64,000 bases of DNA from Streptomyces misionensis (GTDB lineage: Bacteria > Actinomycetota > Actinomycetes > Streptomycetales > Streptomycetaceae), in NCBI RefSeq assembly GCF_007896895.1, contig NZ_VOGW01000187.1, forward strand, positions 20,425 through 84,424. The letters run 5' to 3'. Made by a program: the position numbers and the translations under genes. Shown in pieces: positions 20,601 to 56,005 of the stretch; within the stretch, counting starts at the first letter, position 1; the number at the start of each line of letters is the position of its first letter. The notes under the pieces were generated by a model. It was not told the origin of the DNA. It ran no database searches and saw only the letters and a list, made by a program, of their open reading frames with translations.

Positions 20601-20683
20601 GCCGACCGGCGTACTCCACACAAGCTGCCGAGCCCGTGCGGTCGGAGTGTCGCGGAGTCCCGATCGCCGGGGCGCTGCATCGT

Positions 20684-20697
20684 GTTTCACGTGAAAC
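20684..20697. promoter_or_regulatory. parS site upstream of parA
   Basis: Perfect 14-bp GTTTCACGTGAAAC, the ParB-binding centromere of Streptomyces, in the rsmG-parA spacer where it may also let ParB influence parAB transcription. Confidence 0.95.
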
Positions 20698-20897: not shown

Positions 20898-21971
20898 ATG
20901 GGAGGCTCTGTTCATTGCGAGCCTGAAGTCGAGGAGAGTGAATCCTTGCGGTCCGACGCCAACATCGCGGGACCGATGACCGATCCGGTCCCCGGTCCCC
21001 GTACCGAGTCGATGGGGGCGGATGTTTCACGTGAAACACCGCCTCCGATGGACGACACCCCCATCGGTCGTGCGGCCCAACTGGCGGTGGAGGCCATCGG
21101 CCGCGCCGGCGAAGGCCTGCCACGCCCGGAGCAGACCCGTGTCATGGTGGTCGCCAACCAGAAGGGTGGCGTGGGCAAGACGACGACGACCGTCAACCTT
21201 GCCGCCTCACTGGCTCTGCACGGTGCCCGGGTCCTGGTGATCGACCTGGACCCGCAGGGCAACGCGTCCACGGCACTCGGGATCGACCACCACGCCGAGG
21301 TTCCCTCCATCTATGACGTGTTGGTGGAGAGCAAGCCGCTCGCCGAGGTCGTCCAGCCCGTTCCGGACGTCGAGGGACTCTTCTGCGCCCCGGCCACCAT
21401 CGATCTCGCCGGTGCGGAGATCGAGTTGGTGTCCCTGGTGGCACGGGAAAGCCGGCTGGAGCGCGCGATCCAGGCGTATGAACAGCCGCTGGACTACATC
21501 CTCATCGACTGTCCGCCCTCGCTCGGCCTGTTGACGGTCAACGCCCTGGTCGCGGGCCAGGAGGTGCTCATTCCGATCCAGTGCGAGTACTACGCGCTGG
21601 AGGGCCTGGGTCAGCTGCTGCGCAATGTCGATCTGGTGCGGGGGCACCTCAACCCCGGCCTGCATGTATCGACCATCCTGCTCACCATGTACGACGGCCG
21701 GACGCGTCTCGCCTCCCAGGTCGCGGAAGAGGTGCGCAGCCACTTCGGTGACGAGGTGCTGCGGACGAGCATTCCCCGCTCGGTCCGTATCTCCGAGGCG
21801 CCGAGCTACGGGCAGACGGTGCTGACTTACGATCCTGGATCGAGCGGTGCCCTCTCGTATCTTGAGGCGGCCCGAGAAATCGCGCTGCGGGGCATTGGCA
21901 TCAGCTATGACGCGAGCCAGGCCCACGTCGGCGCCCAGAGCGACCCGAGCATGGTGGAGGGGATCCAGTGA
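20898..21971 (+). CDS. parA: Chromosome-partitioning ATPase ParA
   Basis: A Walker-type ATPase that positions ParB-parS complexes during sporulation septation. The deviant Walker [10 protein letters not shown] lies about 50 residues past M-D-D-T-P-I-G-R, followed by I-D-L-D-P-Q-G-N and [10 protein letters not shown]. From ATG 20898 the protein has 357 residues. The start is uncertain: TTG 20946 has GAGGAG nine bases upstream, ATG 21048 would give a 307-residue core, and the frame is open back to 20682. A parS inside the N-terminal region encodes V-S-R-E-T. The stop overlaps the parB GTG. Confidence 0.93.
21024..21037. promoter_or_regulatory. parS site inside the parA 5' region
   Basis: Perfect GTTTCACGTGAAAC in the parA frame, encoding V-S-R-E-T, just before the M-D-D-T-P core start. 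Confidence 0.95.
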
Positions 21972-23940: not shown

Positions 23941-23954
23941 GTTTCACGTGAAAC
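23941..23954. promoter_or_regulatory. parS site after trxA
   Basis: Perfect GTTTCACGTGAAAC, one base from the trxA stop codon and one base from the terminator hairpin. Confidence 0.95.
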
Positions 23955-25482: not shown

Positions 25483-26421
25483 TCAGGGACGGGCGACGGG
25501 CTGCTTCAGAAGAACCTTGCCGACGGTGGTGGACGGCTGCCCCACACAGGCGGCGTCGACCACATAGGCGGTGACGCGCGCACTGTTCTGAGGATCGGGC
25601 AGGACCACGAGATAGGCGCTCTTCCCGGCGTAGGAGCCGTTCTTCGCCGCCAGTGCCTGCTCCCCTCGGGGAATCGCCTGCCGCACGCAGTCCGGAACCG
25701 GAACCTGCGGCTGGAGGAGCGTGTTCGCGCTCTCGGTCGACTGCGGGGTGTTCGGCTGGACGCCGCTGCCCGATCGCGGCTGCTGGGTGGCCGGGCTTCG
25801 CTGAAGGCCCTTCTTCGCTCCCAGCAGCTCCCGCACCTGGTTCTGGACGCTGGCGCCGGAGAAACTCTCCGCGGACGCGCTCGGCTTGCCGTGGGCCGTG
25901 GTGGACGTTCCGCCGCCGAGCGACTGGAGCACCAGCGCACCGGCACCCAGAACGGCGGCGGTCAGCACACCACCCAGCACCACGGCCCGGCGCCGCCGCC
26001 CGCTCCTTTCCCTGCCCGGCTTCCGCCCCGGCCCGGTCGCCGCATGCGGCCGACCGCCGGGACGGCCGACCGGAGCCGAGACCGCACGATCCGCCGGGGC
26101 CGCACGATCCGCCGGGGCCGATGTTTCACGTGAAACATCACCTGCGGGCTCCTCCTCAGGGGCAGAGGCATGGAGCAGAGCCTCGGCGGCAAGGGCGGCA
26201 TCGATCCGCTGCGCCACGTCGGCCGGCATCGGCTCGTCCGCCGGGGAGGACCCCAGTAGCCCCCGGATCTCCTCCAACGAGGCGTAGATGTCCGCGCACA
26301 GCTCACAGGCGCCCAGATGACGCCGTACGTCCGTGCCTCGCCCGGCGGGGAGCAGGCCTTCGGCGAGGTCGGAGATCTCCGTGACGTCCGGGTGCCCGGC
26401 CGCGTCGGTCGTCGCTGTCAC
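25483..26421 (-). CDS. Probable anti-sigma factor for SigM, zinc-finger membrane protein
   Basis: A 312-residue protein whose N-terminal anti-sigma domain carries H-L-G-A-C-E-L-C near residues 35-42, the HxxxCxxC zinc motif of ZAS proteins. An Ala/Pro-rich linker follows, then a single membrane segment in the R-R-R-A-V-V-L-G-G-V-L-T-A-A-V-L stretch near 160-178 and an extracytoplasmic C-terminal region. The GTG start overlaps the sigM stop, the usual arrangement of cognate pairs. The linker contains a parS site read as V-S-R-E-T. Pairing with SigM is inferred from context. Confidence 0.85.
   Translation of the reverse strand: MTATTDAAGHPDVTEISDLAEGLLPAGRGTDVRRHLGACELCADIYASLEEIRGLLGSSPADEPMPADVAQRIDAALAAEALLHASAPEEEPAGDVSRETSAPADRAAPADRAVSAPVGRPGGRPHAATGPGRKPGRERSGRRRRAVVLGGVLTAAVLGAGALVLQSLGGGTSTTAHGKPSASAESFSGASVQNQVRELLGAKKGLQRSPATQQPRSGSGVQPNTPQSTESANTLLQPQVPVPDCVRQAIPRGEQALAAKNGSYAGKSAYLVVLPDPQNSARVTAYVVDAACVGQPSTTVGKVLLKQPVARP
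26123..26136. promoter_or_regulatory. parS site inside the anti-sigma gene
   Basis: Perfect GTTTCACGTGAAAC within a 20-bp perfect palindrome (26120-26139), in the coding sequence of the linker, encoding V-S-R-E-T. Confidence 0.95.
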
Positions 26422-35570: not shown

Positions 35571-35584
35571 GTTTCACGTGAAAC
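35571..35584. promoter_or_regulatory. parS site after cca (first of a pair)
   Basis: Perfect GTTTCACGTGAAAC, 20 bases after the cca stop and 45 bases centre to centre from the next parS. Confidence 0.95.
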
Positions 35585-35605
35585 ATCCTTCGGGCCGACC
35601 GTGCC

Positions 35606-35639
35606 GAGGGTCGATGTTTCACGTGAAACATCGACCCTC
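35606..35639. terminator. parS-centred 34-bp palindrome between convergent genes
   Basis: Bases 35606-35622 are the exact reverse complement of 35623-35639, a perfect 34-bp palindrome whose centre is parS GTTTCACGTGAAAC (35616-35629). As RNA it would fold into a long hairpin and could end cca or MFS transcripts. The MFS stop codon lies inside it (35619-35621). Confidence 0.75.
35616..35629. promoter_or_regulatory. parS site overlapping the MFS gene end (second of a pair)
   Basis: Perfect GTTTCACGTGAAAC embedded in the 34-bp palindrome; it supplies the stop codon of the leftward MFS gene. Confidence 0.95.
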
Positions 35640-48342: not shown

Positions 48343-48356
48343 GTTTCACGTGAAAC
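48343..48356. promoter_or_regulatory. parS site between rplI and the MATE gene
   Basis: Perfect GTTTCACGTGAAAC between convergent genes, two bases before the stop codon of the leftward MATE gene. Confidence 0.95.
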
Positions 48357-49696: not shown

Positions 49697-50178
49697 GGGC
49701 GCTAATGTAATCGTCCACAGGTAAGAGATGCAATTGTCGATTGCCCCTTACTTGTGATCTCGACTCCCTTCGTTTCGCGCACCGTTCGAAGCGATCTTGG
49801 CCCGACCGGGAAACTTTTTCTTCTGCACAGCCGGTGGATGTCGAACTCGCAGGTCAGAGAGGTGTTGCTGTCGAGGGCGAGGGCTTGTTCACAGGGCTGT
49901 CCACCGGGTCGTGCACAGGTTTCGGCGAGTTCTCCACAGCATCGGGCCGGTCGTCCACATGGCCTGTGGATAACCAGATTGGCTGACGCTGCCGACGGGC
50001 CTACCGTGGTCCGGCGCCCGCTCCTTCTCCCGGACCCGGAAGCCGTTCTCTCCGAGGCCCGGGAACCGGCATGAACCGACGCGCCAGAAGCGGAGTCGGG
50101 CCTCTCGATTTGTCAGTGTCGTGCCGTAGAACAGAGGCCACGGCGAGGTCCGCCGCGCGGACGGGAGGAGGTGGCTCG
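49697..50178. other. dnaB upstream region with a DnaA-box cluster
   Basis: 482 bases between MATE and dnaB without a supported gene. It contains five DnaA-box-like 9-mers at 49885-49973 (entered separately) and the dnaB ribosome binding site GGAGGAGGT. No clear promoter pair was found. Confidence 0.6.
49885..49973. promoter_or_regulatory. DnaA-box cluster upstream of dnaB
   Basis: TTGTTCACA (49885-49893), CTGTCCACC (49897-49905), TTCTCCACA (49930-49938) and TCGTCCACA (49951-49959) are on the plus strand; TTATCCACA, the perfect classical DnaA box, is on the minus strand at 49965-49973. Two others match the Streptomyces degenerate consensus fully. The cluster ends about 205 bases before dnaB and lies about 36 kb from oriC. 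Confidence 0.75.
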
Positions 50179-51657
50179 GTGAGTATTTCCGAGCCCTTGG
50201 ACGATCCGTGGGCGGACAGCGGGCCCAGTGATCGTCTGCCGGCCTCCCGTCGGCGTCCCGACGGCGGCCGGGGCCGTGACGAGCAGCACGACCGGGGCCG
50301 GGACAACGCTTCCTGGGACGGCGGCGGCTCCGCCTTCGAGCGGGTGCCCCCGCAGGACCTCGACGCCGAGCAGTCGGTGCTGGGCGGCATGCTGCTGTCC
50401 AAGGACGCCATCGCCGACGTCGTGGAGATCCTCAAGGGACACGACTTCTACAAGCCCGCGCACGAGACGATCTACCAGGCGATCCTGGACGTCTACGCCA
50501 AGGGCGAGCCGGCCGACCCGATCACCATCGCCGCCGAGCTCACCAAGCGCGGTGAGATCAACAAGGTCGGCGGCGCCGCGTATCTGCACAGCCTGGTCCA
50601 GACCGTGCCGACGGCGGCCAACGCCGAGTACTACGCGGAGATCGTCCACGAGCGCGCGGTCCTGCGCCGTCTGGTCGAGGCCGGGACGCGCATCACCCAG
50701 ATGGGATACGCGGCCGACGGTGACGTGGACGAGATCGTCAACAGCGCCCAGGCCGAGATCTACGCCGTCACCGAGCAGCGCACCAGCGAGGACTACCTGC
50801 CGCTGGGCGACATCATGGAGGGCGCCCTCGACGAGATCGAGGCGATCGGTTCGCGCAGCGGCGAGATGACGGGCGTGCCCACCGGCTTCACCGACTTCGA
50901 CTCGCTCACCAACGGCCTGCACCCCGGTCAGATGATCGTCATCGCGGCCCGTCCCGCCATGGGCAAGTCGACGCTCGCGCTGGACTTCGCGCGGGCCGCG
51001 GCCATCAAGCACAACCTGCCGAGCGTCATCTTCTCGCTCGAGATGGGCCGCAACGAGATCGCGATGCGTCTGCTGTCCGCCGAGGCCAGGGTGGCCCTGC
51101 ACCACATGCGCTCCGGCACGATGACCGACGAGGACTGGACCCGGCTCGCCCGCCGTATGCCGGACGTCTCGGCCGCCCCGCTCTACATCGACGACTCCCC
51201 GAACCTGTCGATGATGGAGATCCGGGCCAAGTGCCGCCGGCTCAAGCAGCGCAACGACCTGAAGCTCGTCGTCATCGACTACCTCCAGCTGATGCAGTCC
51301 GGCGGTTCCAAGCGCGCCGAGAGCCGTCAGCAGGAGGTCTCGGACATGTCCCGTAACCTCAAGCTGCTCGCCAAGGAACTGGAGATCCCGGTCATCGCGC
51401 TGTCTCAGCTCAACCGTGGTCCCGAGCAGCGCACCGACAAGAAGCCGATGGTCTCCGACCTGCGTGAGTCCGGCTCCATCGAGCAGGACGCCGACATGGT
51501 CATCCTGCTGCACCGCGAGGACGCCTACGAGAAGGAGTCACCGCGTGCGGGCGAGGCCGACCTGATCGTCGCCAAGCACCGAAATGGACCCACGGCCACC
51601 ATCACGGTGGCCTTCCAGGGCCACTACTCCCGCTTCGTGGACATGGCGCAGACCTGA
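50179..51657 (+). CDS. dnaB: Replicative DNA helicase DnaB
   Basis: A 492-residue hexameric 5'-3' helicase. After a disordered acidic N-terminus (residues 1-55) comes the helical N-domain (P-P-Q-D-L-D-A-E-Q-S-V-L-G-G-M-L). The RecA-like domain has Walker A A-R-P-A-M-G-K-S-T near 256-264, Walker B L-V-V-I-D-Y-L-Q-L-M and D-L-R-E-S-G-S-I-E-Q-D-A-D. No intein is present. GTG 50179 follows GGAGGAGGT seven bases away, so the longer frame is rejected. A DnaA-box cluster lies upstream. Confidence 0.97.
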   Translation: MSISEPLDDPWADSGPSDRLPASRRRPDGGRGRDEQHDRGRDNASWDGGGSAFERVPPQDLDAEQSVLGGMLLSKDAIADVVEILKGHDFYKPAHETIYQAILDVYAKGEPADPITIAAELTKRGEINKVGGAAYLHSLVQTVPTAANAEYYAEIVHERAVLRRLVEAGTRITQMGYAADGDVDEIVNSAQAEIYAVTEQRTSEDYLPLGDIMEGALDEIEAIGSRSGEMTGVPTGFTDFDSLTNGLHPGQMIVIAARPAMGKSTLALDFARAAAIKHNLPSVIFSLEMGRNEIAMRLLSAEARVALHHMRSGTMTDEDWTRLARRMPDVSAAPLYIDDSPNLSMMEIRAKCRRLKQRNDLKLVVIDYLQLMQSGGSKRAESRQQEVSDMSRNLKLLAKELEIPVIALSQLNRGPEQRTDKKPMVSDLRESGSIEQDADMVILLHREDAYEKESPRAGEADLIVAKHRNGPTATITVAFQGHYSRFVDMAQT

Positions 51658-51733
51658 CCGGACTCCATGCCCCCGGTGCCTCCGCGCCGGAAATGAATTC
51701 GACGCACGGCGTTCCAGCAGATGGACTGGGGGG

Positions 51734-53119
51734 ATGACGAGTTCACAGGACGCGCTGCTCCCGGGGACGCAGCGCGCATTGCTGCACAGGATCGCCGTCG
51801 CCCAGCGCGAAGGGCGGACGCCGTCGCTGGTCGCCGCCGTGGTGCGCGACGGGCGGACCGTATGGCACGGGGCGCGCAGCTCGGTGGAGGGGCACGCGCC
51901 GGACGAGAACGTGCAGTACCGGATCGGGTCCATCACCAAGACCTTCACGGCCGTGCTGGTGATGCGACTGCGCGACGAGGGCGTGCTCGACCTCGGTGAT
52001 CCGCTGGAGAAGCATCTGCCGGGCACCGCCGTGGGAGAGGCCACGATCGCCCAGCTGCTCGCGCACACGGCCGGGGTGGCGGCCGAGTCCCCCGGGCCCT
52101 GGTGGGAGCGGACGCCGGGCTCACTGCGGCCCGAGCTGAGCGACGTACTCGGCGAGCAGCCCCTGCTGCACCCCGCGGGCCGGCTGCACCACTACTCCAA
52201 CACCGGCTACACGCTGCTCGGCGCGCTGGTGGAGGAGCTGCGTGGCGCCCCCTGGGAGGAGGTGCTGCGCCGGGAGATCCTCGAACCGCTGGGCCTGCAC
52301 CGCACCAGTGCTCAGCCGCAGGCCCCGCACGCGGGCGGCTGGGCGGTGCATCCGTGGGCCGACGCGCTGCTGCCGGAGCCGGCGGAGGACCTCGGCCGCA
52401 TGGCGTCCGCCGGACAGCTGTGGTCGACCACGGGGGACCTGGCGCGGTTCGCGGTCTTTCTCGCCCATGGGGACGAGCGGGTGCTGAGTGCGGAGTCGGT
52501 GCTGGAGATGCGGACCCCGGCGGCGCCGGCCGAGGCCCCCGATGTGGTGGACGGGGTCAGTTACGGCCTCGGTATGCAGCTCACCACCCGCGACGGGCGG
52601 CTGCTGGTCGGCCACTCCGGTTCGCTGCCCGGCTTCCTGGCCAACCTCACCATCAGCGTGGAGGACGACCTGGCCGCGGTGGTGCTCACCAACTGCACCA
52701 GCGGGCCGTCGCTGGGGACGGTGGGCGCCGATCTCCTGCGGATCGTCGCCGAGGCGGAGCCGAGGATCCCCGAGCCCTGGCGCCCGCTGCGTGAGGTCGA
52801 CCCGGCGGCTCTGGAACTGGCCGGACAGTGGTACTGGGGGACCGGTGCCTTCGGGCTGCGGGTGACGGCCGATGGTCTTCTCTCGCTCGCTCCTCTGACC
52901 GGCGGCGGCCGCGGCTCCCGCTTCCGCCCGAACGGCGACGGCACCTGGACAGGACTCGAGGACTACTACGCCGGTGAGCTCCTGCGGCCCGTGCGGCGGC
53001 CGGACGGCTCCCTGAGCCATCTCGACCTCGGCTCGTTCGTGTTCACCCGGCAGCCGTACGACCCCGAGGCCCCGGTGCCCGGCGGCGTGGACCCGGAGGG
53101 CTGGCGGGGCCTCGACTGA
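51734..53119 (+). CDS. Serine hydrolase of the beta-lactamase/D-Ala-D-Ala peptidase type
   Basis: A 461-residue class C beta-lactamase-fold protein. The nucleophile is in S-I-T-K near residue 67, followed by Y-S-N near 154 and H-S-G near 295, replacing KTG, as in many esterase-like members. A C-terminal lipocalin-like domain of about 100 residues follows (W-Y-W-G-T-G-A-F-G-L). No signal peptide is visible, so it is probably cytoplasmic. The substrate is unknown. It follows dnaB by 76 bases and ends at a parS-centred palindrome. Confidence 0.87.
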   Translation: MTSSQDALLPGTQRALLHRIAVAQREGRTPSLVAAVVRDGRTVWHGARSSVEGHAPDENVQYRIGSITKTFTAVLVMRLRDEGVLDLGDPLEKHLPGTAVGEATIAQLLAHTAGVAAESPGPWWERTPGSLRPELSDVLGEQPLLHPAGRLHHYSNTGYTLLGALVEELRGAPWEEVLRREILEPLGLHRTSAQPQAPHAGGWAVHPWADALLPEPAEDLGRMASAGQLWSTTGDLARFAVFLAHGDERVLSAESVLEMRTPAAPAEAPDVVDGVSYGLGMQLTTRDGRLLVGHSGSLPGFLANLTISVEDDLAAVVLTNCTSGPSLGTVGADLLRIVAEAEPRIPEPWRPLREVDPAALELAGQWYWGTGAFGLRVTADGLLSLAPLTGGGRGSRFRPNGDGTWTGLEDYYAGELLRPVRRPDGSLSHLDLGSFVFTRQPYDPEAPVPGGVDPEGWRGLD

Positions 53120-53130
53120 CCCGTCGGCGC

Positions 53131-53170
53131 AGAGGGGCCCCGCGTTTCACGTGAAACGCGGGGCCCCTCT
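53131..53170. terminator. parS-centred 40-bp perfect palindrome
   Basis: Bases 53131-53150 are the exact reverse complement of 53151-53170. The outer parts are GC-rich and the centre is parS. It lies between the convergent serine hydrolase and GNAT genes and would form a very stable RNA hairpin, the best terminator candidate in this spacer. Confidence 0.8.
53144..53157. promoter_or_regulatory. parS site within a 40-bp palindrome
   Basis: Perfect GTTTCACGTGAAAC at the exact centre of the palindrome 53131-53170. Confidence 0.95.
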
Positions 53171-53194
53171 CCGCTCCGAGCGGGGCGAAAGCCG

Positions 53195-53647
53195 TCACAG
53201 GCGCAGCTTGAAGCCTTCGTGCGAGGCGGTGAACCCGAGCCGCTCGTAGAAGCGGTGGGCGTCGGGGCGGGACTTGTCGGACGTCAGCTGCACCATCCGG
53301 CAGTCGAGCCGCCGGGCCGTGTCGACGGCCCACTGGATCAACTCGGTGCCCAGACCGCTGCCGCGTTCATCGGCATGGATGCGCACGGCCTCGATGAGCC
53401 CACGCGTCGCACCCCGGTGGGAAAGACCGGGGATGGTGGTGAGCTGGAGGGTCCCGATCACCCGGCCGTCGCGCACGGCGACGACAAGATGCTGGTTCGG
53501 ATCCGCATCCAGCCGCTTCAGCGCCGCCTGGTACGGCGCGGGATCGTCGGGCGACTCCCGCTGCGCGCCCAGCGGATCGTCGGCGAGCATGCCGATGATC
53601 GCCGGAAGGTCGTCGGCGGTCGCCGCCCGTATCTCAAGATCTCCCAT
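53195..53647 (-). CDS. GNAT-family N-acetyltransferase
   Basis: A 150-residue single-domain acetyltransferase. The acetyl-CoA loop reads R-G-S-G-L-G-T-E-L near residues 95-103, and the C-terminal D-A-H-R-F-Y-E-R-L-G-F motif is classical. The substrate is unknown; small members of this subgroup acetylate amines or amino acids. It lies nine bases after the MarR gene on the same strand, so the two may be co-transcribed. It converges on the serine hydrolase. Confidence 0.9.
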   Translation of the reverse strand: MGDLEIRAATADDLPAIIGMLADDPLGAQRESPDDPAPYQAALKRLDADPNQHLVVAVRDGRVIGTLQLTTIPGLSHRGATRGLIEAVRIHADERGSGLGTELIQWAVDTARRLDCRMVQLTSDKSRPDAHRFYERLGFTASHEGFKLRL

Positions 53648-53656
53648 GCCCGCACC

Positions 53657-54115
53657 CTACGCGGGCACGTTCAGCGACTCCACGACCTTCACCAGCGGGG
53701 CCAGTTGAGGGTTCTCCGAGGCCTTGTCCAGGGCCTCACGCAGGGCGGCGTCATTGGTGGGGCGCGCCTTCTCCAGCAGCCGCAGGCCGGCCTCGGTGAC
53801 ATTGGTGTAGATGCCGCGCCGGTCGGTGGGGCACAGATAGCGCTCCAACAGGCCGCGGTCCTCCAGGCGGGTCACCAGACGGGTGGTGGCGCTCTGGCTG
53901 AGCACGACCGCGTCGGCGACCTGCTTCATCTGGAGATGCCCGCCCTCGCCGTCGTGCTGTCGGCTCAGTACATCGAGCAGTGAGTACTCGCGCACGCTGA
54001 GGTCGTGCTGCGCCTGGAGGGCGCGCTCGATGTGCGCCTCGATCTTCCCGTGCAGCGCAGAGAGGGCGCACCAGCCCTGAGCGAGGGCGGTGAGCGCGGG
54101 GTCCGTCGCTGTCAT
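53657..54115 (-). CDS. MarR-family transcriptional regulator
   Basis: A 152-residue winged-helix regulator. The recognition region is V-V-L-S-Q-S-A-T-T-R-L-V-T-R-L-E-D-R-G-L near residues 72-91, then the wing D-R-R-G-I-Y-T-N-V-T. The ATG at M-T-A-T-D-P has CGGAGGAA upstream and is favoured over the longer frame. It is divergent from an MFS exporter gene, the usual arrangement for MarR-controlled efflux. A TTGCA-N13-TGCAA repeat lies between them. Confidence 0.9.
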   Translation of the reverse strand: MTATDPALTALAQGWCALSALHGKIEAHIERALQAQHDLSVREYSLLDVLSRQHDGEGGHLQMKQVADAVVLSQSATTRLVTRLEDRGLLERYLCPTDRRGIYTNVTEAGLRLLEKARPTNDAALREALDKASENPQLAPLVKVVESLNVPA

Positions 54116-54179
54116 TGGCGTGTTCCTCCGTCCCGGAGCGGCTGCCTCAAGGATAGCCCAATGCCGTGATTGCCCGCTC

Positions 54180-54202
54180 TTGCATTTAGCCAGCGTCTGC
54201 AA
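54180..54202. promoter_or_regulatory. Possible MarR operator
   Basis: An inverted repeat TTGCA (54180-54184) and TGCAA (54198-54202) with a 13-base gap, in the MarR-MFS spacer. The half-sites are short, so this is tentative. Confidence 0.35.
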
Positions 54203-54258
54203 TTATCGTGATGGAACGCAAAGCGCTCATGCAACCGACTGGGAAGGTGTACCCCCAC

Positions 54259-55467
54259 ATGCCTCTCGCGCTTCTGGCCCTCGCGATCGGGGCCTTCGGA
54301 ATCGGCACCACCGAGTTCGTGATCATGGGTTTGCTGCCCGAGGTCGCGGGCGATTTCGGGGTCTCCATCCCCACGGCCGGCCTGCTGGTGACCGGCTACG
54401 CGCTCGGCGTGGTCATCGGCGCCCCGCTGATGACCGTGCTGGGCACCAAGGTCCCGCGCAAGCGGATGCTGATGCTGCTGATGGGCCTCTTCATCGCCGG
54501 CAACCTGCTGTCCGCGCTGGCCCCCGTCTTCGCGGTCATGCTGATCGGCCGCGTGGTCGCCTCGCTCGCCCACGGAGCCTTCTTCGGCATCGGCTCGGTG
54601 GTGGCGGCCGAACTGGTCGCACCCCAGAAGAAGGCCGGCGCCATCGCCATGATGTTCACCGGTCTGACGGTCGCCAATGTCGTCGGAGTCCCGCTGGGCA
54701 CCCTGATCGGCCAGCACGTCGGCTGGCGCGTCACCTTCGCGATCGTTGCCGCGCTCGGCGTGATCGGCCTCGCGGGCGTCGCCAAGCTGGTGCCCGAGCT
54801 GCCCCGCCCCGAGGGCGTGCACCTGCGGCACGAGCTGGCCGCGTTCAAGAACGCCCAGGTCCTGCTCGCCATGGCGATGACCGTCCTCGGTTTCGGCGGT
54901 GTCTTCGCGGCCATCACCTACATCGCGCCGATGATGACCCACATCGCCGGCTTCGCCGACGGCTCGGTCACCTGGCTGCTGGTCCTGTTCGGCCTCGGCA
55001 TGGTCGGTGGCAACCTCGTCGGCGGCAAGTTCGCCGACCGCGCCCTGATGCCGATGCTGTACGTCTCGCTGGGCGCCCTGGCCATCGTCCTCGCCCTGTT
55101 CACGCTGACCGCCCACAACAAGATCGCGGCCGCCGTGACCATCGCCCTCATCGGCGCCCTCGGCTTCGCCACCGTTCCGCCGCTGCAGAAGCGCGTCCTC
55201 GACCAGGCGCACGGCGCGCCCACGCTCGCCTCGGCGGTGAACATCGGCGCCTTCAACCTGGGCAACGCGCTCTCCGCCTGGCTCGGTGGCCTGGTGATCT
55301 CGGCCGGCTTCGGCTACACCGCCCCCAACTGGGTCGGTGCCGTGCTCGCCGCGGCCGCCCTGGTCCTCGCCGTCCTCTCGGCCGTCCTGGAGCGCCGGGA
55401 CACCGCCCGGGGCGCCGTGGCCGCCTCCAGCACCCCCAGCGGCCGACACGCCGCCGCCCGCCACTGA
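54259..55467 (+). CDS. MFS efflux transporter (DHA1, AraJ/Cml-like)
   Basis: A 402-residue 12-helix exporter. The start M-P-L-A-L-L-A-L-A-I-G-A-F-G-I-G-T-T-E-F-V-I-M-G-L-L is the signature of this DHA1 subgroup, and G-R-V-V-A-S-L-A-H-G-A-F-F-G-I-G is helix 4. Substrates in the subgroup include chloramphenicol and sugars. ATG 54259 is preceded by GGGAAGGT; in-frame ATGs at 54211 and 54229 and a GTG at 54208 are alternatives. The gene is divergent from MarR, its probable repressor, and followed by a GlcG-type gene. Confidence 0.88.
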   Translation: MPLALLALAIGAFGIGTTEFVIMGLLPEVAGDFGVSIPTAGLLVTGYALGVVIGAPLMTVLGTKVPRKRMLMLLMGLFIAGNLLSALAPVFAVMLIGRVVASLAHGAFFGIGSVVAAELVAPQKKAGAIAMMFTGLTVANVVGVPLGTLIGQHVGWRVTFAIVAALGVIGLAGVAKLVPELPRPEGVHLRHELAAFKNAQVLLAMAMTVLGFGGVFAAITYIAPMMTHIAGFADGSVTWLLVLFGLGMVGGNLVGGKFADRALMPMLYVSLGALAIVLALFTLTAHNKIAAAVTIALIGALGFATVPPLQKRVLDQAHGAPTLASAVNIGAFNLGNALSAWLGGLVISAGFGYTAPNWVGAVLAAAALVLAVLSAVLERRDTARGAVAASSTPSGRHAAARH

Positions 55468-55533
55468 GCCACCCACCGTCACCCGCGCCGACCCCGGTGC
55501 GGCCCCCATCGCACCACCCGAGGAGACACGTCC

Positions 55534-55953
55534 ATGACCACCACCGCCGTCGCCCCGCTCACCATCGAGGACGCCGAGCTGCTGGTCGCCACGGCCCGCC
55601 GTGCGGCCGAGGAGGCGGGCGTCACCGTCAGCGTCACCGTTCTCGACGCGGGCGGTCACCTGCTCGCCTTCCGCCGGGACGACCGGGCCGTGCTGATCTC
55701 CGGCGAGACCAGCACGCGCAAGGCCTACACCGCGCTCCAGCTGAACGCCCCCACCGCCGACCTGGTCGGCGCCGTCCAGCCGGGCGGCCTCTTCCACACG
55801 CTGCCCACGGCCCTCGACCGGCCGCTGCTGTTCATCGCGGGCGGCGTCCCCGTCCACCGGGACGGCCGGCTGATCGGCGCGGTCGGCGTCGGTGGCGGGG
55901 CACCCGAGCAGGACCACGGCTTCGCCACCGCGGCCGTGCGGGCCCTCGCCTGA
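55534..55953 (+). CDS. GlcG/HbpS-family heme- or cofactor-binding protein
   Basis: A 139-residue DUF336 protein. V-T-V-S-V-T-V-L-D-A-G-G-H-L-L-A-F-R-R-D-D near residues 30-50, R-K-A-Y-T-A and R-L-I-G-A-V-G-V-G-G-G are the family core. Relatives include HbpS of Streptomyces reticuli, a heme/redox sensor, and GlcG of glycolate operons. No signal peptide is visible, unlike HbpS. It follows the MFS gene by 66 bases with GAGGAG before the ATG, and a strong hairpin follows. Confidence 0.88.
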   Translation: MTTTAVAPLTIEDAELLVATARRAAEEAGVTVSVTVLDAGGHLLAFRRDDRAVLISGETSTRKAYTALQLNAPTADLVGAVQPGGLFHTLPTALDRPLLFIAGGVPVHRDGRLIGAVGVGGGAPEQDHGFATAAVRALA

Positions 55954-55972
55954 TCGCACGTCCCGGACGATC

Positions 55973-56005
55973 ACAGGCCCCGCCGCTCCCAGCGGCGGGG
56001 CCTGT
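55973..56005. terminator. Bidirectional terminator between GlcG-like and GNAT genes
   Basis: Perfect 15-bp arms 55973-55987 and 55991-56005 with a 3-base loop, between convergent genes. Confidence 0.85.

Follow-up and report, generated by a model that had tools for sequence, protein, structure and literature searches.

A parS-centred palindrome at a convergent gene end in Streptomyces misionensis is probably both a ParB site and a transcript-end hairpin

Does a parS site that forms the centre of a long perfect palindrome between two converging genes serve chromosome partition, the ends of transcripts, or both? We investigated this in a stretch of 64,000 nucleotides from Streptomyces misionensis (contig NZ_VOGW01000187.1, hereafter the window), an oriC region with the genes of ParB, a ParA-family protein, DnaB and thioredoxin. 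The initial annotation had described a perfect palindrome of 20+20 bp with parS in its middle, placed between convergent genes, and we confirmed both points (site A in the table). The centre is a single exact copy of GTTTCACGTGAAAC, which we take to be the 14-bp chromosomal parS motif, and the arms are not copies of it. With one mismatch allowed, the palindrome extended to 53127-53174, with complementarity of 96%. There were three zero-gap perfect palindromes of at least 20 bp in the window, all centred on parS, measuring 40 bp (53131-53170), 34 bp (35606-35639, around the second parS of site B) and 20 bp (26120-26139); site A is the longest zero-gap palindrome present. Its left arm was found at site A alone within the stretches of the own genome that were scanned, and the central 38 bp were absent from the 227 loci compared, with L128, the own genome, as the sole exception. 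When plasmid records were searched with the spacer and its flanks, matches were confined to the flanking genes, with none over the spacer. No Rfam family matched 52900-53400 at the gathering threshold.

Features of site A and of the parS sites compared with it (positions are those of the window unless a locus is named)
Feature	Position	Strand	Remark
Site A, perfect zero-gap palindrome, 20+20 bp	53131-53170	.	predicted to form one hairpin as RNA, either strand, -47.5 kcal/mol
Left arm of site A	53131-53143	+	GC-rich
parS core, exact GTTTCACGTGAAAC	53144-53157	.	inner 5 bp and ACGU loop of the site A hairpin
Right arm of site A	53158-53170	+	pairs with the left arm
Serine hydrolase (Pfam Beta-lactamase and DUF7586)	51584-53119	+	start uncertain; stop 11 nt left of the palindrome
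GNAT acetyltransferase	53195-53647	-	stop 24 nt right of the palindrome
Site B, parS pair (35571-35584, 35616-35629)	35571-35629	.	between CCA tRNA nucleotidyltransferase and MFS gene
Site C, parS 14 bp past the cydB (cytochrome bd subunit II) stop, before cydCD	L085:10636		
Bare parS in convergent spacer	23941-23954	.	comparison; separate hairpin of -29.4 kcal/mol
Bare parS in convergent spacer	48343-48356	.	comparison; separate hairpin of -31.7 kcal/mol

At the DNA level, the central 14 bp would be a ParB loading site within a cluster of parS copies close to oriC. We detected 12 matches to parS with at most two mismatches in the window, compared with 0.11 expected by shuffling. Exact copies numbered 15 in the genome, of which 10 lie in the window and 13 on the same contig, over a span of about 54 kb, and the ParA and ParB genes lie beside the cluster. 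According to the accessible text of PMC4852455 and PMC12511625, ParB ChIP-seq in S. venezuelae gives peaks at parS sites near oriC. Given these published peaks, the exact motif and its conservation, we infer that 53144-53157 is loaded by ParB.

Other copies of the cluster lie in varied surroundings. The one at 21024, inside or close to the beginning of the ParA-family gene, is framed by a quasi-palindrome (21012-21050) that is conserved in orthologues too and has a mismatch adjoining the core; it would fold close to an ATG (21012), and in frame it encodes the peptide VSRET. The copy at 35616-35629 overlaps a stop codon, the MFS protein ending in ...CFT. According to the simple caller from which the gene starts were taken, the copies at L085:10671-10686 and at 20682-20697 of the window overlap the starts of CydCD (MFHVKP) and of the ParA frame (VFHVKR), respectively. 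Doublets with a start-to-start spacing of 18-24 bp, whose members could pair as a hairpin, formed 14 pairs in 11 genomes (for example L092:3009/3027, L092:9602/9621, L096:2718/2740, L096:9250/9269, L104:8670/8689, L111:12314/12336 and L122:8092/8116), and a spacing of 45 bp recurred at site B (5 pairs).

As RNA, the palindrome would fold into one long hairpin whichever strand is transcribed, and may end or protect both convergent transcripts, in the manner of hairpins at other gene ends of Streptomyces. Because parS is itself palindromic, it supplies the tip of the stem and the loop. The 75-nt spacer folded with -59.1 kcal/mol on the plus strand (z = -7.9) and -58.7 kcal/mol on the minus strand (z = -7.3), and none of 200 shuffled sequences was equally stable. 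The best hairpin of the spacer outside the palindrome reached -14.9 kcal/mol, compared with -47.5 kcal/mol for the palindrome (one mismatch allowed). A scan of 50000-56000 for hairpins followed by T gave no hit in the spacer and two sites elsewhere, both inside the MFS gene 54208-55467. By these tests, the earlier statement that the spacer holds no other terminator was borne out.

We compared site A with the corresponding spacers of 80 Streptomyces loci carrying the GNAT gene, namely the best 80 of 421 relatives, a sample skewed to near kin; L079 was dropped owing to masked bases, which left 79 loci. The next gene was convergent in all 79 of them. Exact parS was present in 72/79 loci (best 80 of 421), 14-144 bp past the GNAT stop, and parS with one or two mismatches in 7/79, five of the seven being GTTCCACGTGAAAC; the core was conserved in this sense. 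This single variant occurs at site A in several species with the hairpin mostly kept (L012, L024, L050, L053, L058, L133, L143). A parS-centred hairpin of -15 kcal/mol or stronger, with two mismatches allowed, was found in 71 of the 79 loci (best 80 of 421; median over all 79, -28.5 kcal/mol), including six of the seven with a mismatched core.

The letters of the arms were not conserved, as there were 54 distinct left 8-mers among the 79 loci (best 80 of 421), and arm positions 1-8 formed Watson-Crick pairs in 64-72 of them. When one locus per distinct left arm was taken from the same best 80 of 421, 9.4 of the first 12 positions were paired, compared with 5.2 of 12 after shuffling of the right arms (sd 0.21, max 6.0 in 2000). 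On a tree of GNAT DNA (80 rows including the window, best 80 of 421 relatives, Fitch parsimony), we counted 142 double changes over 12 positions, each replacing one Watson-Crick pair by another; the count is approximate, since the tree was built quickly and 29 of its 77 inner branches had weak support. Pair-breaking changes on the same tree numbered 152, chiefly at outer positions. When each left position was set against a neighbour 1-3 columns off, 17-24 double changes were obtained over 10 positions. Judging by these alignments, the arms are under selection for pairing, and the hairpin is selected across much of the genus; selection would have added or kept complementary GC-rich arms around parS. 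A chance palindrome was rejected on account of the co-variation of the arms and of the parS centre of every long palindrome in the window.

The arms could also be an extension of the sequence that ParB recognizes, a long form of the centromere. In favour of this, the first flanking pair was T-A in 68/79 loci (best 80 of 421), which gives a 16-bp motif. The window's own site has C-G there, however, the letters past the first pair vary among species, and most other conserved parS copies are armless. Extended recognition is disfavoured because it is complementarity, and not the letters, that the species have in common, and we regard such recognition as extremely improbable.

The centred hairpin was absent in 8/79 loci (best 80 of 421). 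Four of these had another hairpin, either beside parS (L027, L078) or partly over it (L053, L071), and in the other four (L005, L051, L067, L072) the best hairpin was no better than -10.4 kcal/mol. The site A parS of G006 was bare, in a spacer with no other hairpin. We also used a more even sample, made of 69 of the 93 other matching genomes (among 121 of the family; the remaining matches were mostly weaker), with the own genome (L128) dropped and two mismatches allowed in the hairpin; it shares some genomes with the best 80, so that the two are not fully independent. It held 27 loci of the own genus, 21 of them with the serine-hydrolase neighbour, and parS was present in 16 of these 21 (14 exact), armed in 11/16 and unarmed in 5/16. 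The parS-less spacers of the same gene pair had an ordinary hairpin of -17 to -37 kcal/mol in 4/5 cases and none in the fifth, a spacer of 22 bp. Among the 42 loci of other genera in this sample, neither the serine-hydrolase neighbour nor parS was found. The cross-Streptomyces comparison of palindromes suggested in the initial annotation thus placed relatives with bare parS in the minority (8/79, best 80 of 421, and 5/16), about half of them without another strong hairpin.

A stable GC-rich hairpin just past the stop codon is a mark of intrinsic terminators and was found at site A; a U-tract after the stem was found on neither strand. With the U-tract missing, the strong terminator of the initial annotation is a putative one. 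Across the 79 loci (best 80 of 421), the first five positions after the stem had a T fraction of 0.30-0.37 on the serine-hydrolase strand and of 0.09-0.20 on the GNAT one. For reference, the fraction was 0.15 over the entire window and 0.17-0.28 following 36 hairpins from convergent spacers that lack parS. There was, then, weak T enrichment on the serine-hydrolase strand and no U-tract on the GNAT strand. The absent U-tract would suit a hairpin that does not terminate transcription and guards 3' ends, blocking exonucleases after Rho-dependent or other downstream termination; according to the accessible text of PMC8269248, the U-poor structured ends of S. clavuligerus may be either I-shaped terminators or trimmed Rho-dependent ends. 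Against such a guard, T is raised past the stem on the serine-hydrolase strand relative to the window (best 80 of 421), and according to the accessible text of PMC12207403, terminators of Streptomyces have hairpins of the greatest length and stability and contain few U. We consider the guard possible, if doubtful.

Further, we examined 150 exact parS copies, taken from parts of the own genome and of ten relatives (G010 was left out, and G001, G002, G004, G005, G008 and G009 were covered for part of their parS-bearing stretches). Arms recurred at three places, sites A, B and C, all of them gene ends. The pair at site B was seen in 10 genomes, and in all 10 at least one member had perfect arms of at least 8 bp; arms of at least 5 bp were present in 16/20 members (the G004 pair was assigned from its spacing and place, its neighbours being miscalled). 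Among the 9 genomes covering site C, perfect arms of 7-10 bp were found in 4 and imperfect ones in 2, and parS was absent in 3. The other conserved copies (20684, 21024, 23941, 26123, 42025, 48343, 57019) nowhere had a perfect extension longer than 5 bp in the genomes read. Inside called genes, 8/62 copies reached -15 kcal/mol with two mismatches allowed (four orthologues of 21024, one of 26123 with -24.5 kcal/mol, and three others; a ninth was site B), so that weak arms are not wholly confined to gene ends. In non-convergent spacers, 1/14 copies with at least 12 non-coding bp on each side reached this value outside sites A, B and C (two mismatches allowed, sites assigned by hand). In other families of the class the number was 1/58 exact copies (L183:2448), with one locus from each of 30 of 104 matching genomes and one mismatch allowed.

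These counts bear on a mutational origin of the arms, in which template switching perfects and lengthens palindromes and parS grows arms wherever nothing opposes it. The weak centred stems at eight in-gene copies are consistent with such a by-product, as are the replacement of whole arms between relatives with few broken intermediates and the mismatch-free palindromes of up to 60-64 bp at L056 and L081. It does not explain why a single one of the 14 non-convergent copies reached -15 kcal/mol, nor the absence of arms where a separate hairpin is present. We think a pure by-product very improbable; mutational self-perfection is unlikely as the whole story and possible as a helper.

Convergent spacers with parS numbered 37, of which 15 were armed and 22 held bare copies only (one mismatch allowed). 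A second hairpin of -20 kcal/mol or stronger, clear of parS, was found in 0/15 armed spacers and in 16/22 bare ones (Fisher p = 6e-6, the orthologues not being independent). L104, among the armed, had a stronger off-centre hairpin over parS; the remaining bare spacers had a hairpin overlapping parS off-centre (4/22) or neither (2/22). In 56 convergent spacers without parS the median hairpin was -20 kcal/mol (one mismatch allowed). From the numbers for armed and bare spacers it follows that the parS-centred hairpin replaces the ordinary hairpin of the gene end.

Copies of parS in the own and ten related genomes amounted to 3.6 per kb in convergent spacers, 0.72 in tandem spacers, 0.24 in divergent spacers and 0.08 inside called genes, that is, in convergent spacers about five times the tandem and about fifteen times the divergent density, on the understanding that the spacer classes and densities carry the errors of the gene caller and that orthologous sites are not independent. 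This caller was a simple GC3 script, which placed several starts too long and labelled some orthologues of sites A and B as tandem, divergent or inside a gene.

The high convergent density and the concentric hairpin in 71/79 loci (best 80 of 421) would both be expected if the two functions were coupled, with a bidirectional terminator shielding ParB loading from RNA polymerase, parS-bound ParB acting as a roadblock that aids termination, or both, and with the fusion selected as a unit. However, other conserved copies in convergent spacers lie beside the hairpin and not within it, and in-gene copies function without arms, so ParB loading does not in general require the fusion. A concentric arrangement is expected in any case, because lengthening a palindrome is the easiest route to a hairpin. 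Functional coupling therefore seems rather unlikely to us. We are similarly reserved about the broader idea that Streptomyces places its centromere sites at convergent gene ends, with some of them forming part of those ends, to make transcription stop where ParB loads. If it were true, loading might be insulated, ParB clamps might be herded by converging polymerases or ParB might act as a roadblock; partition and termination would be one regulated function, which could change in sporulation.

Shared use of one palindrome fits the data as well as coupling of partition and termination does, and it is the simplest account, because spacers at gene ends need a hairpin and a ParB site, being palindromic, is the cheapest seed or tip from which to build one. 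We therefore favour dual use and hold it to be likely: site A would be a parS-cored gene-end hairpin, a ParB site as DNA and a transcript-end hairpin as RNA, with 3' ends at site A, ParB binding at the same copy and the two uses sharing the sequence without needing each other. Since evolution keeps both parS and the hairpin, one short sequence probably does two jobs. Of the combined element first proposed, what we observed were the conserved core, the co-varying arms and a parS-centred hairpin in place of the ordinary one. The missing U-tract counts against dual use. So do the unarmed copies in 8/79 (best 80 of 421) and 5/16 loci, the bare G006 site and the eight weak in-gene stems.

The site agrees with the Streptomyces chromosomal parS of the ParABS system in its exact motif, its oriC-proximal cluster and the adjoining parAB. 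It differs in that parS centres a longer palindrome with species-specific arms, which the accessible text of PMC4852455 and PMC12511625 does not mention; the word "intergenic" is absent from that text of both, and "terminator" and "convergent" from that of PMC12511625. With the U-poor or I-shaped gene-end hairpins of Streptomyces, as the accessible parts of PMC8269248 and PMC12207403 describe them, it shares a long, very stable GC-rich stem, a short loop, few U and a convergent gene end, whereas its tip is an invariant ParB site and not a free loop. The nearest parallel is the DNA uptake sequences of Neisseria paired as terminators (accessible text of PMC2397512), in which a DNA signal motif likewise belongs to a terminator hairpin located at gene ends. 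In Neisseria the stem consists of two inverted motif copies, an arrangement that we did not find at site A. Here a single self-palindromic motif makes the tip, on a stem of unrelated sequence, and the DNA function is segregation instead of uptake. We found no description of parS-cored terminators in the titles and abstract openings searched, most subscription literature lying outside their reach, and no word starting with "terminat" in the accessible text of the ParB review PMC7022226.

In summary, these results suggest that gene ends shape the location of parS in Streptomyces. Sites of this type offer natural, replicated constructs for studying how transcription meets ParB clamps at a bacterial centromere, as a single genome has the same parS motif both inside a concentric terminator-like hairpin and free of one. 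They also show an RNA element that has taken in a DNA recognition motif, and selection can be seen on each of the two.
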